From positions 744,001-808,000 of the forward strand of contig NZ_AWXE01000004.1 of assembly GCF_000469155.1 (NCBI RefSeq): 64,000 bases of DNA, in the 5' to 3' direction. The number at the start of each line of letters is the position of its first letter. Position 1 is the first letter of the stretch. The notes under the pieces were generated by a model. The model saw nothing but the letters and a program-made list of their open reading frames with translations. It did no database searches and was not told where the DNA came from. The translations under genes were made by a program, and so were the position numbers. Origin of the DNA: Candidatus Micropelagos thuwalensis. GTDB taxonomy: Bacteria > Pseudomonadota > Alphaproteobacteria > RS24. Positions 47,924 through 53,708 of this stretch are shown here, one piece after another.

Positions 47924-48711
47924 TATTACCTCTTGTTTTACCTGTTCTTTGATAACCAAGAGTTTCCAGATGTTTTAAGATATCTCTTTTCCATGACTTA
48001 CTGTTTGGCTCGATAACAATACATCTAGGCCATAATTTCTCTGGTGCTTCATCAAAAAAATGGAAAAAGAGCCTGATCTTCGAAGCCTTCGATATCAATT
48101 TTCATAGAGTCTATTTTAATAATATTTTGATTGTTTAAAATATTGATTAGAGTTTCAGTTTCTACATAAATAGGCGGGGTATTATCCGAGTTCTCCCTAA
48201 TTACGCTTGCTGTTCCCAGTCCGCTACCACAATAAAAAGGCACTTTATCTCCTTGACCGATACATAGTGGTACGATGGTGATTATTTCGTCCAAATCATT
48301 AATTGAAACATTGAAATTCAAGAGTTCCAATGTCGGCGGATTTGGTTCAATAGCAATAATTTTAGTGAAACCGCGTTTGGCCAGACTCAAGGAGTAATGC
48401 CCTGTATTAGCGCCTATATCTATAAAAACTTTATCTTTTTGTGATTTATGGCCCTCACATTCGAGAGCATCAATTTCTTTCAAATCATAAAATTTTGAGG
48501 TTGTTAGAATTTTTGCGTCAGTTGTGTTTTCGCTAATGTTCAAACGGTATTTGATGCCATGGATTGTCGCATCAACAACTTCATAACCTAGACGTTCCCA
48601 TATTTTTTGAATTTGACGTCTTATAGTACCTCTGCTTATGCCGAGTTTTCTTAAAAACTCTAATATAAAAGTTATATTTCTAGGTTTATAGTATCCAAAT
48701 TTTTCAGACAT
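47901..48711 (-). pseudogene. FkbM-family methyltransferase, broken by a frameshift
   Basis: The first 219 residues (48711 down to a stop at 48052) hold a normal FkbM SAM-binding region (VFIDIGANTGHYSLSLA, AIEPNPPTLELL) and then KIDIEGFEDQALFPFF followed by a stop. Shifting one base at a run of seven A (48054-48060, T on the coding strand) lets the reading continue DEAPEKLWPRCIVIEPNSK to a stop at 47901, completing the fold at about 269 residues. It is either a real frameshift mutation, phase variation at the homopolymer, or a sequencing error. Family members methylate sugars or other small acceptors. AT-rich composition fits the surrounding islet. Confidence 0.75.
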
Positions 48712-48866
48712 TTTTTGCCCATAGGTTAGATTTTGTAAAATTAAGTTTATACGTTTTTTTATTTTTACTTATCAAAAGTTAAGAAAATTTCATTTCAAAT
48801 ATTGTTGTTATGTAATTTAAACCATGTAATGCTCTTTGCGTTGAGAAATATACTTGGAGTTTTGCG

Positions 48867-51293
48867 ATGGCCACGCGTAAGTCCACTAACGACAAAAAAC
48901 CAACTGAGGCTTCAGTAAGCCCTGGAGAAAATAAGTTAGGGTTTTCACCAAACATTAATTCTACCTATAGTCTTGGTAGGACGGTTTATATCACCGCGTG
49001 GATTGTTGAAATCGTAGCTGCGATTATCGGACTTTTCATAGCCTTCTCTATAGGTATTTCCGAATTTGTAAATATCCCTGAAGCGGAGAGAGATTTTGGG
49101 GCTCACACGCGTGCAATTTTGGGTGCATTACCGTTTGTCTTGATTGCAATTCTCGAGCCGACCAAAATTTATCTCGCATCTGGTCTTTATCATTCACGTA
49201 TTGCAAATCGGCTAGGTATGACTTTGGCCTTTCTTGTCGGTCTCACAGCTCTGACTTTTGTAACATTTGAAACAATGTTCAATGCCTTAATTCAGCAAAA
49301 TACAAATATCACACAGCAAACCCGCCAGCTTGTTAATGAAAGATACGAAGTTCTTGATGCCATAGAAACCATTGATCGTGATATTAATCGCTTCTCATCA
49401 GCGACCCCTCAACAAATCCGTCAGCAATTTTCTGGACCAATTGAAAATCTTGAAGCAGATCGTAAGAGACGAATAGATACTGCCGCGCGCGACCATGATG
49501 AAACACTTACAACATTAACTGCAAGGCTTGACAGCTTGCAGGCCCAAAATGTGAGCAATGCTGGGGAGGTTCTAAGAGAAGAAATTTCTCGATTGAGTAC
49601 TGCCATTCAAGATGTGACGCGCCTTAGACAAAATGCCGTTAGTAATATTAATAGCCGCTACAAGCAGCAAATTGATGAAATTAAAGCTCAAATCGAAGGC
49701 ATTAATGAGGACAGGCGCGAGCAAATTGATAGCACGGATGACTTCTTTTTTGGTCGGTCACAGATTGTGCGTGAGATTAACACTGCTAGTAACAGTCAGA
49801 TTGACGATTTAAGTGCTTCGATAGCCAAGCTTGAAAGTCAACGCGATGAAGAACTACGCGTTGCTATTTCCGGTTATGAAACAAGACAACGGAGTTTATC
49901 AACAGAGCAGGATCGCTTACGTAAAATTATTGCATCCCAATCTGAACGGCTTTCACAGGTGCGCAACACTCAAATCGAAACAGTTCAACGTTTGATTGCA
50001 AACTCAAAAGCTGATTATGCCGAAAGGCTGGATGCAATTAATGCACAAATTGACAAACAAATTGGCGAAATCAATGTTCAAAAACAGGCATCACTCGAAA
50101 CCTCTGGCTCGCAGGCACTGTTGATACCGGCTTTACAGGAAAAAAAGAGCGAGCTGGTTATAAAAAGCAATGAGCTTCGTAAGGCTTACCGCGAAAAAGT
50201 TGAGAAAGTTCAAGTTTATCAGCTTACTGCCATTGTCTGTGGCACGCTGGAAGAATGGTGTTTTAAAGATAGTTCGCTTCTACCGACTGGAAGCGAGAGT
50301 TTTACGCGCGCGCGGGCGCGAGGTTTTGATGTTGCAGATTTGCCTGAAGAAAAAGTAAAATTTGTTTCGACACTCTGGTTTGGATCCACAGCGCTTATTG
50401 TCGCCACAATGGGGACATTTCTGGCGTTTATTTCATTCGTATTATCTGAAGACAGACAAATCAGAGCCCAACGCCGTAGCCGGTCGGGTAAAGTGATTGT
50501 CATGATGTTCCTGCGGTTCTCAAGTTTGCTCAAGGCTTTTGGGCAAAGCCTTATAGAGATAGCCGCACGAACAGGCGATGGCTTTATTTATGTGACGCGT
50601 GCATTGGTCTATTTGTTCCGTTTTGTTGTTGAGACGGTACTCGATATTATCGGCATGCTGGCGGATAGCTTGCGCATTCTGATTTTGGTGTTAAGCCGAG
50701 GTGTGCATATGACATTTGTCGAAATCCGACGCAATATTCGCAAGAATGCAGCCCGGACAATTAACGATGTTGAAGCCACAGCCCTGGTCACACCGTCGCT
50801 TGATAAGCCGACACAGGCCGATGGTGCTGGTGAAATCAATGCGGCGAACAGCGCCGCCGCGCAGGAGGCTCAGCCCCCCCAAAAATTAATGAAAGAGCCG
50901 CCTATCGAAGAACTAAAGACAGAAGAAATTGCAACGAAAGCGACAAAAGTTGATGCTCGACAAAATGCTGAAGAGCCAAAAGTAAGAGCTGTTCCGGTAA
51001 CCAAAAAAATATCAGCTTCAGTAAATGCCTCACTTTCGTCAGTTCGTGAGACACTCAATAAAACGCTCTTTAATCCGGATATCATAAAATCTATCGGCGA
51101 GAAAATTCCCTTTAAGAGTGATGTTGCAGAACGCGTGGAGACGCCAAAAAAAGCACCGGTTCCCAGAAAGAAACCAGCAACTAAAAAGCAAGCCTCTGTC
51201 TCTACCAAAGAGTTGAATGCCGGACGGCGTACACCGCCGCGCCCGCCTAAAACCACACGTAAATCTCCACCAAAAAAATGGTATGAAGATTGA
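48867..51293 (+). CDS. Large membrane protein with long coiled coil and basic tail, unknown function
   Basis: 808 residues, no family recognised. N-terminal basic tail; three hydrophobic helices at about 39-63, 83-106 and 116-139; a long, charged, Gln-rich coiled coil at about 145-450; a Cys pair (C458, C465) in AIVCGTLEEWCF; a fourth helix at 499-526; then an amphipathic/hydrophobic stretch (543-615); and a Lys/Pro/Ala-rich tail to the end. By the positive-inside rule the coiled coil would be periplasmic and the basic tail cytoplasmic. The 3-helix, coil, 1-helix plan recalls DUF4407-type proteins, but I see no sequence match. It lies 102 bases upstream of phoR on the same strand. Confidence 0.8.
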   Translation: MATRKSTNDKKPTEASVSPGENKLGFSPNINSTYSLGRTVYITAWIVEIVAAIIGLFIAFSIGISEFVNIPEAERDFGAHTRAILGALPFVLIAILEPTKIYLASGLYHSRIANRLGMTLAFLVGLTALTFVTFETMFNALIQQNTNITQQTRQLVNERYEVLDAIETIDRDINRFSSATPQQIRQQFSGPIENLEADRKRRIDTAARDHDETLTTLTARLDSLQAQNVSNAGEVLREEISRLSTAIQDVTRLRQNAVSNINSRYKQQIDEIKAQIEGINEDRREQIDSTDDFFFGRSQIVREINTASNSQIDDLSASIAKLESQRDEELRVAISGYETRQRSLSTEQDRLRKIIASQSERLSQVRNTQIETVQRLIANSKADYAERLDAINAQIDKQIGEINVQKQASLETSGSQALLIPALQEKKSELVIKSNELRKAYREKVEKVQVYQLTAIVCGTLEEWCFKDSSLLPTGSESFTRARARGFDVADLPEEKVKFVSTLWFGSTALIVATMGTFLAFISFVLSEDRQIRAQRRSRSGKVIVMMFLRFSSLLKAFGQSLIEIAARTGDGFIYVTRALVYLFRFVVETVLDIIGMLADSLRILILVLSRGVHMTFVEIRRNIRKNAARTINDVEATALVTPSLDKPTQADGAGEINAANSAAAQEAQPPQKLMKEPPIEELKTEEIATKATKVDARQNAEEPKVRAVPVTKKISASVNASLSSVRETLNKTLFNPDIIKSIGEKIPFKSDVAERVETPKKAPVPRKKPATKKQASVSTKELNAGRRTPPRPPKTTRKSPPKKWYED

Positions 51294-51395: not shown

Positions 51396-52433
51396 ATGAA
51401 ATCAGACCCTCACACATTGTTCGATAATTTTGATTTGTTGATCGATGACGGGCTCATTCTTGTGGACCCAAATGGAGAGGTTGTTCGGGCAAATCAATCG
51501 TCACTTTCCACTCTGGGCGAACGCATCATAAATCAGCCGCTTGAATATTATTTACGCCACCCCGATATAAATCAAGCGATTGATAATATTAAAGAATTTG
51601 GTGAGACGAGTCCACTTACCTACCTTCGTTATGATGATGTCCAGCACGAATATGTTGTGAAATTTGCTCCTTTTCCAGATGATCATTGTCTGGTTCGCAT
51701 GAATGATGTCACAGCGCGTATCAGTTTTGATAAAATCAGATCGGAATTTGTCGCAAATGTGAGCCATGAATTACGTTCCCCCCTCACAACTCTTACCGGA
51801 TTTATCGAAACCCTACAGACAACTGCTGCGGATGATCCTAAAGCCCGTATTGAATTTCTTGCTATTATGCGAGAGGAAGCAGGACGCATGCAGCGGCTAG
51901 TTGATAGTTTGTTGTCTTTGTCCCGCGTAGAGTCGCAAGAGCATTTACATCCCAATGACGATGTGCAGATGACGGATGTGGTGAAGGAAGTTTACGATTT
52001 GATGACGCATCGCGCAGCGCAATGCGGGATGCGTATAGAGCTTATAAATAATTTGCCGCAAAAACTTAATCCTATTGTTTTGGGCAAGAAAGATGAGTTG
52101 AGTGAGGTGCTCCATAATCTTCTGGAGAATGCAATTAAATATGGTTATCAGAACTCAACGGTTAAATTTATCCTTGAAACTGACGAGCCTAAAAAAATGG
52201 TGCAGATAAGTGTCGTTAATTCAGGTGAGGGTATTGATGAGATTCATCTGCCCCGTCTAACAGAAAGATTTTACCGTGTAGATAAAGCCCGCACTCGTAA
52301 GCTGGGTGGTACAGGACTCGGGCTTGCAATTGTGAAGCATATTGTGAACCGTCATAGAGGCCGTTTACAAATCACAAGTGAAAGGGGTGGTGAGACTGTA
52401 TTCACAGTTTATTTCCCGATTATAGGGGCGTAG
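51396..52433 (+). CDS. phoR: PhoR-type histidine kinase lacking membrane helices
   Basis: Sensor kinase of the phosphate regulon. 345 residues. A PAS-like domain (about 12-105) is followed by a HisKA domain with the H box FVANVSHELRSPL (His124). The ATPase domain has N box LHNLLENAIKYG, G1 VVNSGEGI, F box ERFYRVD and G2 GGTGLGLAI. No transmembrane segment precedes the PAS domain, and an in-frame TAG just upstream of the ATG rules out a longer reading. Position before pstSCAB-phoU-phoB identifies it as PhoR. About 200 bases separate it from pstS. Confidence 0.9.
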   Translation: MKSDPHTLFDNFDLLIDDGLILVDPNGEVVRANQSSLSTLGERIINQPLEYYLRHPDINQAIDNIKEFGETSPLTYLRYDDVQHEYVVKFAPFPDDHCLVRMNDVTARISFDKIRSEFVANVSHELRSPLTTLTGFIETLQTTAADDPKARIEFLAIMREEAGRMQRLVDSLLSLSRVESQEHLHPNDDVQMTDVVKEVYDLMTHRAAQCGMRIELINNLPQKLNPIVLGKKDELSEVLHNLLENAIKYGYQNSTVKFILETDEPKKMVQISVVNSGEGIDEIHLPRLTERFYRVDKARTRKLGGTGLGLAIVKHIVNRHRGRLQITSERGGETVFTVYFPIIGA

Positions 52434-52553
52434 ATTTCTGACATATCAGTTTAAAAATCAAAAGAACTAAAACGACTGTATATCGGGGGGGCATCCACAT
52501 GATTTTGCTCTATTTTTGCAGTTATATGTAATGCGTCGATGCTTTTTGTGAAT

Positions 52554-52576
52554 TTGTCACATTTCTGTAATATGAA
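52554..52576 (+). promoter_or_regulatory. Pho box and -10 of the pstS promoter
   Basis: Two half-sites, TTGTCAC (52554-52560) and CTGTAAT (52565-52571), spaced 11 bases apart as PhoB requires. A -10 like TATGAA (52571-52576) lies at the position expected when PhoB replaces the -35. The pstS start is about 55 bases on. Confidence 0.75.
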
Positions 52577-52631
52577 TGGGGTTAGTTGCAAATTACTGCT
52601 ACTCTCATGCTCAAATCTATTGGAGGCAAAC

Positions 52632-53708
52632 ATGCCCAAAGTAAAAGTGTTTCAACCACATTTAAAAAAAATAATTCTCAAGAGTTTTCTTTCATTATTC
52701 ATCCTCTCCGTAACAACGATTATTGCATCAGCGCGCGATCAAATTGTTGTTGTCGGCTCTTCGACAGTCTTCCCTTTTTCAACCACGGTTGCTGAGCAAT
52801 TTGGCCGCAATACAGAATTTAAAACTCCTATCGTCGAGTCAACTGGATCCGGTGGCGGCTTAAAGCTTTTTTGTGCCGGTATCGGTTTGGAACACCCGGA
52901 TGTGACAAATGCTTCTCGTCGCATCAAGAAAAGTGAATTTGATAATTGCCAGTCCAAAGGTATTGATATGACTGAGGTGGTTATCGGCTATGACGGCATT
53001 GTTGTGGCAAATGTCAAATCTGCCCCAAAACTCAATCTGAGTTTGAAGCACATTTTTATGGCGACCGCCGCTAAAGTCCCTGCACCGGGTTGTGAGACCG
53101 ATTGTGCGCTGGTGGATAACCCTTATAAAATGTGGAGTGACATTGATAAGTCCCTGCCTGCCAAGAAAATCGAAATTCTCGGCCCACCACCGACATCCGG
53201 TACACGTGATGCGTTTCAGGAACTGGCAATGCAAGGTGGTTCAAAAGCATTCCCGACCCTCAATGCGCTTAAAAAATCAAATAAGAGTCAATGGAAGCGC
53301 ATTGTTCATACCGTGCGTGAAGACGGCTCATGGATTGACTCGGGTGAAAACGATAATTTGATGGTTAACAAATTAATCGCTAATCCTGATGCAGTAGGTG
53401 TTTTTGGCTATAGTTTCCTTGAGCAAAATGCAGATAAGCTTAAAGGCGCTAATATTGACGCTGTCGCGCCAACTTTCGATAATATTGCCGAGGGCAAGTA
53501 TAATATTTCCCGTTCCCTCTATTTTTATGTGAAACTTGCCCATATTGGCACGGTTCCAGGCATACAAGAGTTTGTAGAGGAATTTACGAGTGAAGCCTCA
53601 TTTGGTGAGGAAGGTTATCTCGTTGATAAAGGTCTCATACCTCTCTTTGAAGGAGAGCGGGAAACCATACGGATGCAAGCCCTTACCTTGAAAAAACTGG
53701 ATTTGTAA
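52632..53708 (+). CDS. pstS: Phosphate ABC transporter substrate-binding protein PstS
   Basis: Periplasmic phosphate-binding protein, 358 residues from the ATG at 52632, which has GGAGG five bases upstream; an in-frame ATG at 52539 lies before the Pho box and is rejected. The signal peptide ends near IIASA-RDQ. Phosphate-contacting segments are VVGSSTVFPF, ESTGSGGGLKLF and GPPPTSGTRDAF. The protein belongs to the group with NASRRIKKSEFDNC, common in alphaproteobacteria. Confidence 0.94.
   Translation: MPKVKVFQPHLKKIILKSFLSLFILSVTTIIASARDQIVVVGSSTVFPFSTTVAEQFGRNTEFKTPIVESTGSGGGLKLFCAGIGLEHPDVTNASRRIKKSEFDNCQSKGIDMTEVVIGYDGIVVANVKSAPKLNLSLKHIFMATAAKVPAPGCETDCALVDNPYKMWSDIDKSLPAKKIEILGPPPTSGTRDAFQELAMQGGSKAFPTLNALKKSNKSQWKRIVHTVREDGSWIDSGENDNLMVNKLIANPDAVGVFGYSFLEQNADKLKGANIDAVAPTFDNIAEGKYNISRSLYFYVKLAHIGTVPGIQEFVEEFTSEASFGEEGYLVDKGLIPLFEGERETIRMQALTLKKLDL

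Follow-up and report, generated by a model that had tools for sequence, protein, structure and literature searches.

Membrane-anchored coiled-coil hairpins are an already known kind of protein. In DUF4407 (PF14362), whose function is unknown, several N-terminal transmembrane (TM) helices are followed by a long coiled coil and a further TM helix. Chemoreceptors carry a long antiparallel helical hairpin in the cytoplasm, with its tip about halfway along the coiled coil; the periplasmic adaptors AcrA, MacA and HlyD carry a helical hairpin that is linked to the inner membrane; and enterococcal PrgA, a Gram-positive surface protein, has a long, membrane-linked coiled-coil stalk. The 64,000-nucleotide stretch of DNA analysed here (the window), from an alphaproteobacterial genome of 1.96 Mb with IMCC14465, a PS1-clade bacterium, among its near relatives, encodes an 808-residue protein of this kind, which represents a rare and previously unnamed family with an undescribed signature.

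Despite an outline similar to that of DUF4407, no match to PF14362 (curated cut-off 31.3 bits) was obtained in the window protein, in the family members scanned (Pfam, E up to 1), or in the whole genome. The structural model of the protein resembles chemoreceptor hairpins (2ch7, 3g67 and Tsr; Z 12.8-14.5), but its hairpin is predicted to be periplasmic, there is no sequence similarity, and MCPsignal, the domain of methyl-accepting chemotaxis proteins, gave no match in Pfam at E up to 1. Unlike the periplasmic adaptors, it has four TM segments and about 150 residues per arm, and no HlyD, lipoyl or barrel-sandwich domain flanking the hairpin was detected (Pfam, E up to 1). PrgA (6z9l) aligned with Z 12.7 over 349 residues; no sequence relation was found, and such a match may simply mean that the arrangement is a common one. 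Zorya ZorA and Lamassu LmuB gave weak profile matches to the coiled coil only, whereas no MotA/ExbB or SMC/ABC ATPase domain was matched, and a MotA/TolQ/ExbB proton-channel domain was likewise not found in Pfam at E up to 1. Membership in ZorA was rejected, its matches being confined to the coiled coil at residues 136-447.

The original prediction that no family can be recognised has stood up to these searches: Pfam, NCBIfam and PADLOC assign none, and the PHROGs gave weak matches within the coiled coil, phrog_3590 and the tape measure family phrog_1538, which were rejected. A sequence search of the PDB returned nothing significant, Foldseek and VIA-align retrieved generic antiparallel coiled coils only, and a literature search yielded nothing on the hairpin family, the papers on DUF4407 not being about this protein. 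No relative was detected in viral contigs by whole-protein or TM1-3 profile search, nor in phage records by tblastn, where one match at E 0.7 was ignored.

The gene is a single intact ORF on the forward strand, with an ATG start and its stop codon included in the coordinates given in Table 1. In comparison with three congeners, dN/dS was 0.08-0.10 overall, lowest in the loop plus TM4 (0.01-0.02) and 0.19-0.24 in the tail. These values mark the ORF as a real, constrained gene under purifying selection.

Table 1. Positions in the window of the 808-residue protein gene and of its predicted parts
Feature	Position	Strand	Evidence
Ribosome-binding-site-like GGAG	48856..48859	+	read directly in sequence, 7 nt 5' of ATG
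Complete membrane coiled-coil hairpin protein, 808 aa	48867..51293	+	ORF, orthologues, purifying selection
TM1 (aa 35-67), conserved AW..E, E48 within membrane segment	48969..49067	+	hydropathy, family alignment, AlphaFold2
TM2 (aa 78-104), conserved P89; E97..K100-I101 near cytoplasmic end	49098..49178	+	hydropathy, family alignment
TM3 (aa 112-142), conserved T133-F-E135-T, continues into arm 1	49200..49292	+	hydropathy, family alignment, AlphaFold2
Hairpin arm 1 (aa 143-289), predicted periplasmic	49293..49733	+	AlphaFold2 helices, periodicity
Hairpin tip, DDFFFGR-type motif (aa 290-297)	49734..49757	+	AlphaFold2 break 290-296, midpoint analysis, conservation
Hairpin arm 2 (aa 298-450), ends in base motif VQVYQL	49758..50216	+	AlphaFold2 helix 297-460, base motif aligned across lineages
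Membrane-proximal loop (aa 451-493), C458 and C465	50217..50345	+	alignment
TM4 (aa 494-527), signature STLWFGS...G..LA	50346..50447	+	hydropathy, alignment, TM4 profile, conservation, dN/dS
Basic amphipathic helices (aa 539-625), predicted cytoplasmic, membrane-surface	50481..50741	+	hydrophobic moment, AlphaFold2 helices
Lys/Pro/Ala-rich tail (aa 626-808), fast-evolving	50742..51290	+	alignment, dN/dS
Conserved KxWYED C-terminus of tail	51273-51290	+	alignment

Three TM helices, about 300 residues of coiled coil, a cysteine pair, a fourth TM helix and a basic tail had been described beforehand, and hydropathy, cysteine content and charge agree with that description. Hydropathy places the TM segments at about residues 35-71, 77-105, 112-142 and 500-528; AlphaFold2, whose input alignment consisted of PS1 proteins only (6 related sequences), predicts helices at 32-68, 77-109 and 113-144 and, for TM4, at 494-526, with low confidence in the TM part (pLDDT 41-61; pTM 0.31-0.33). 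The loop between TM1 and TM2 is acidic, and the loop between TM2 and TM3 and the segment after TM4 are basic. Since this distribution of charges fits the positive-inside rule, we infer, solely from that rule, that both termini are cytoplasmic and that the hairpin is periplasmic. The two cysteines of the loop are the only ones in the protein and are invariant in the aligned PS1 members; if periplasmic, they would probably be oxidised to a disulfide.

The region behind TM4 (residues 531-625) is amphipathic, with 15 K/R against 6 D/E, and its basic amphipathic part is not seen in the short members from the other class. The remaining tail is basic (35 K/R against 23 D/E), with pLDDT mostly under 50. 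Its C-terminal motif is kept between PS1 genera whose tails are otherwise not alignable, and WYED followed by a stop occurs once in the whole genome. The G266 and Microvirga members (L031:2176-4434 and L035:7965-9563) have a common cytoplasmic tail with repeats of the V-E-V-P-V-E-K type, ending near V-P-[LI], that is absent from PS1.

Structure prediction had been proposed as a check, and in the AlphaFold2 model residues 146-289 are helical (with two short breaks), the chain is interrupted at 290-296, and one continuous helix follows at 297-460. The same break was obtained in two separate runs, both with PS1 sequences only, and pLDDT in the arms is mostly 68-96. In the window protein, arm 1 shows a strong heptad-type signal (reached by 0 of 2000 shuffles) and arm 2 a weak one (p 0.19); heptad periodicity is weak in some arms. 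Structural matches to the model are antiparallel hairpins, many of them centred on the helix break: the break lies at model positions 257-263, chemoreceptor 3g67 covers positions 150-372, and the PI3K iSH2 hairpin covers 197-325. Because the matching solved hairpins centre on the predicted break, the model is a folded-back hairpin and not one extended rod. With a rise of 0.15 nm per residue, a fully helical arm of about 150 residues would be about 22-23 nm long.

Hairpin length was scored as the distance from the TM3 glutamate to the base motif [VN]Q[IV]Y[RQ][LM] in PS1, in members from the other class and in Microvirga, four members with variant motifs being left unscored. This span is 314 residues in PS1, 307-315 in the other-class members scored, and 273 in Microvirga. 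Nearly all scored members have an FF pair within 0-4 residues of the exact span midpoint; two members have FL at this position, and Microvirga has neither. F294 is shared by six or more of the 7 lineages, which is true of very few columns in the coiled coil. The hairpin length is not universal, given the shorter Microvirga span without FF and the extra residues before TM4 in the G266 member. That length, tip and helix break agree is our strongest new result, and a four-TM architecture with a near-constant hairpin and a centred tip is well supported by sequence comparison and by the predicted model.

Profiles of the whole protein returned mostly coiled coils and a single genuine distant relative, G266; four weak profile matches were rejected as relatives, as were the whole-length matches G291, a TRAP transporter permease, and G312, which matched in the coiled coil only. 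With the membrane end of the G266 member as query, tblastn found two Rhizobiales proteins (E 2e-3 and 2e-2), both encoded on large plasmids. A profile restricted to TM1-3 matched proteins in genomes outside the Alphaproteobacteria at E 1e-26 (G528) and 2e-13, and the members in the G528 genus were matched by the family TM1-3 profile at E 1e-46 to 6e-28. In the Pseudomonadota sampled, the family is represented in 17 genomes from outside the Alphaproteobacteria; within this class it occurs in PS1 bacteria, in one further alphaproteobacterium and on two Rhizobiales plasmids. Its occurrence by sampled group, in counts that cover only part of each group, is 13/49, 4/116 and 1/32 genomes, the first two values being those of the taxonomic families of the other-class hits and the 13/49 reflecting a patchy occurrence within one genus; in its own class the gene is rare (3/385 sampled genomes, of which genus g1 contributes two).

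Homology was also checked for transitivity with profiles built from PS1 members alone (Z=100000). The TM1-3 profile recovered all other members (E 2e-17 to 4e-3), and the TM4 profile landed at the matching place, with E 6e-8 for G266 and 1e-3 to 0.2 for most others, and was not significant for three members. The family signature consists of AW..E in TM1, E..KI in TM2, TFET in TM3 and [IL]WF.S..G in TM4. At least 6 of 7 lineages share the columns A44, W45, E48, A51, G55, I58, P89, F90, A94, E97, K100, I101, L129, T133, F134, E135 and T136 in TM1-3 and V500, W504, F505, G506, S507, A509, G516, L519 and A520 at TM4, and the approximately 350 residues in between contain only I166, F294, L312 and Q449. 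The window protein has the TM1-3 signature, a hairpin in the range of about 270-315 residues and the TM4 signature, which on sequence grounds places it in this unnamed family.

Several features were observed near the distant copies. Directly downstream of the G266 homologue lies a one-TM coiled-coil protein (L031:663-2170), and a TerB-like protein is also found beside it; these are possible companions in that lineage only. A PAN/Apple-domain protein follows both Rhizobiales plasmid homologues (L034:7965-10841 and L035:7965-10542), and in Mesorhizobium the homologue is broken up into two ORFs.

The original prediction had also considered a link with envelope sensing conceivable, the gene being close to, and on the same strand as, a phoR whose product has no membrane part. 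The arrangement itself is as described: the gap is 102 bp, and no membrane segment is present in PhoR (51396-52433) of the window genome. The four near-complete genomes of the PS1-clade genus g1 and the five of its sister genus g3 all carry the gene; no copy was detected in g2, g4, g5 and g6 or in two further, incomplete genomes of g1. Absence from an incomplete genome is weak evidence, and the absences in g4 and g6 were mostly scored in genomes of at least 90% completeness. Within g1 the order esterase/methyltransferase, 808-residue gene, phoR, pstS is largely kept, no terminator-like site was found on the plus strand of the gap, and the gene may be co-transcribed with phoR there. These features would suit a membrane accessory subunit of PhoR that would control PhoR/PhoB in response to the envelope or to phosphate, but the g3 orthologues (39-46% identity) are located elsewhere, either downstream of a cluster of ExbB/ExbD/TPR type (names read from the sequences) and two enzyme genes or on contigs without phoR, and the distant members stand in unrelated gene contexts unlinked to phoR. 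Scattered orthologues had been named beforehand as the observation that would speak against the link, and adjacency was found in g1 only.

PhoR was present in 20 of 28 genomes of the taxonomic family, and in 10/10 non-g1 genomes examined it lacks a membrane segment (ORFs of 350-380 aa; maximum 19-residue hydropathy 0.82-1.56); there pstS follows phoR wherever the contig shows it, and other genes precede it. Because these ten PhoRs are membrane-free as well, this form is ancestral to the taxonomic family and independent of the 808-residue protein, which it does not need: g4 and g6 have a membrane-free PhoR, yet no copy of the gene was detected in them. Neither conserved linkage nor co-occurrence, by which an accessory protein of PhoR would be recognised, was thus found. 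A Pho-box scan gave no site upstream of the gene, its matches in the window being near chance level. We consider a PhoR subunit highly improbable; nothing demonstrable connects the protein with the neighbouring phosphate sensor, and a tempting but wrong link between a membrane protein and phosphate sensing is thereby removed.

Further observations concern the flanking genes. The pstS ORF start (52539-52640) looks overcalled, since relatives begin later, and a weak Pho-box-like site with 3 mismatches, near chance level, lies at 52554-52571. An FkbM-type methyltransferase gene (48052-48711 on the minus strand, extending to about 47900) carries a frameshift near its C-terminus in this genome: the ORF has 219 aa, the proteins of congeners have 268-272 aa, and the residues lost from the C-terminus can be read in a different frame.

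As to function, we lean, at somewhat less than even confidence, towards an accessory inner-membrane protein whose periplasmic antiparallel hairpin of fixed length would serve as a strut, a tether or a sensor of envelope distance. A four-helix anchor with both termini in the cytoplasm would hold one long hairpin upright in the periplasm, where its conserved aromatic tip may reach the peptidoglycan or the outer membrane, contacting in the latter case either a protein or the inner leaflet. The membrane-buried residues E48, E97, K100 and E135 may stabilise the anchor or relay a signal to the basic, PS1-specific cytoplasmic tail, whose KxWYED end may carry a docking motif; none of this would act through PhoR. 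Length can matter in such a role, because Rcs signalling in E. coli is lost when the envelope distance changes by 3-4 nm (PMC5736177). As the inner-to-outer membrane distance of 30-32 nm in hyperosmotic E. coli cells (PMC8824477) exceeds 23 nm, the tip of a hairpin of about 23 nm may reach only peptidoglycan.

Other functions can be read into the same architecture. In a chemoreceptor-like or mechanosensing transducer, the hairpin would be the sensor rod and the TM charges would relay to the cytoplasmic tail; the likeness of the model to chemoreceptor hairpins (Z 14), the conserved charges inside TM helices and the C-terminal WYED conserved in PS1 are consistent with this, but the chemoreceptor hairpin is cytoplasmic and accompanied by MCPsignal, long helical models often reach Z near 14, and the short cytoplasmic part of the other-class members leaves little to signal with, so that we regard this role as unlikely. 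Quite unlikely, too, is a horizontally moving accessory or defence-type gene whose product senses phage injection or envelope damage and acts via its tail. Its patchiness within one genus and rarity elsewhere, the two plasmid-borne copies and the neighbours of two copies (a CBASS phospholipase gene at about 4 kb in Mesorhizobium and, at about 5 kb in G266, a McrB-like AAA protein, named from sequence reading) speak for mobility or defence. However, PADLOC gave no confident match (the LmuB and ZorA matches, at E of at least 1e-3, fall in the coiled coil), purifying selection keeps the gene in all near-complete g1 genomes and all of g3, phage records and viral contigs hold no homologue, and the other-class copies sit among housekeeping genes. 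A hairpin with a conserved tip on an inner-membrane anchor also recalls a periplasmic adaptor-like part of a transport or secretion system, docking on an outer-membrane channel as MacA or HlyD does on TolC; this we judge improbable, as no barrel or lipoyl domain is matched, no transporter or channel gene is conserved nearby, and the arms are longer than those of well-known adaptors.

Our findings show that the coiled coil had concealed this family: unrelated coiled coils swamp whole-protein searches, and the membrane ends reveal the homology between the alphaproteobacterial and other-class members. Across two classes of Pseudomonadota, the hairpin span of the PS1 and other-class members scored stays at 307-315 residues at roughly 20% identity. 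These proteins might be trans-envelope molecular rulers, in which hairpins of 307-315 residues with a centred aromatic tip, on a TM bundle with invariant buried charges, would report spacing or tip contact to the cytoplasm, although we hold this more specific view to be rather doubtful. Since the length of the hairpin and the position of its tip are conserved and its sequence is not, the family offers a testable case of a protein selected for its periplasmic reach.
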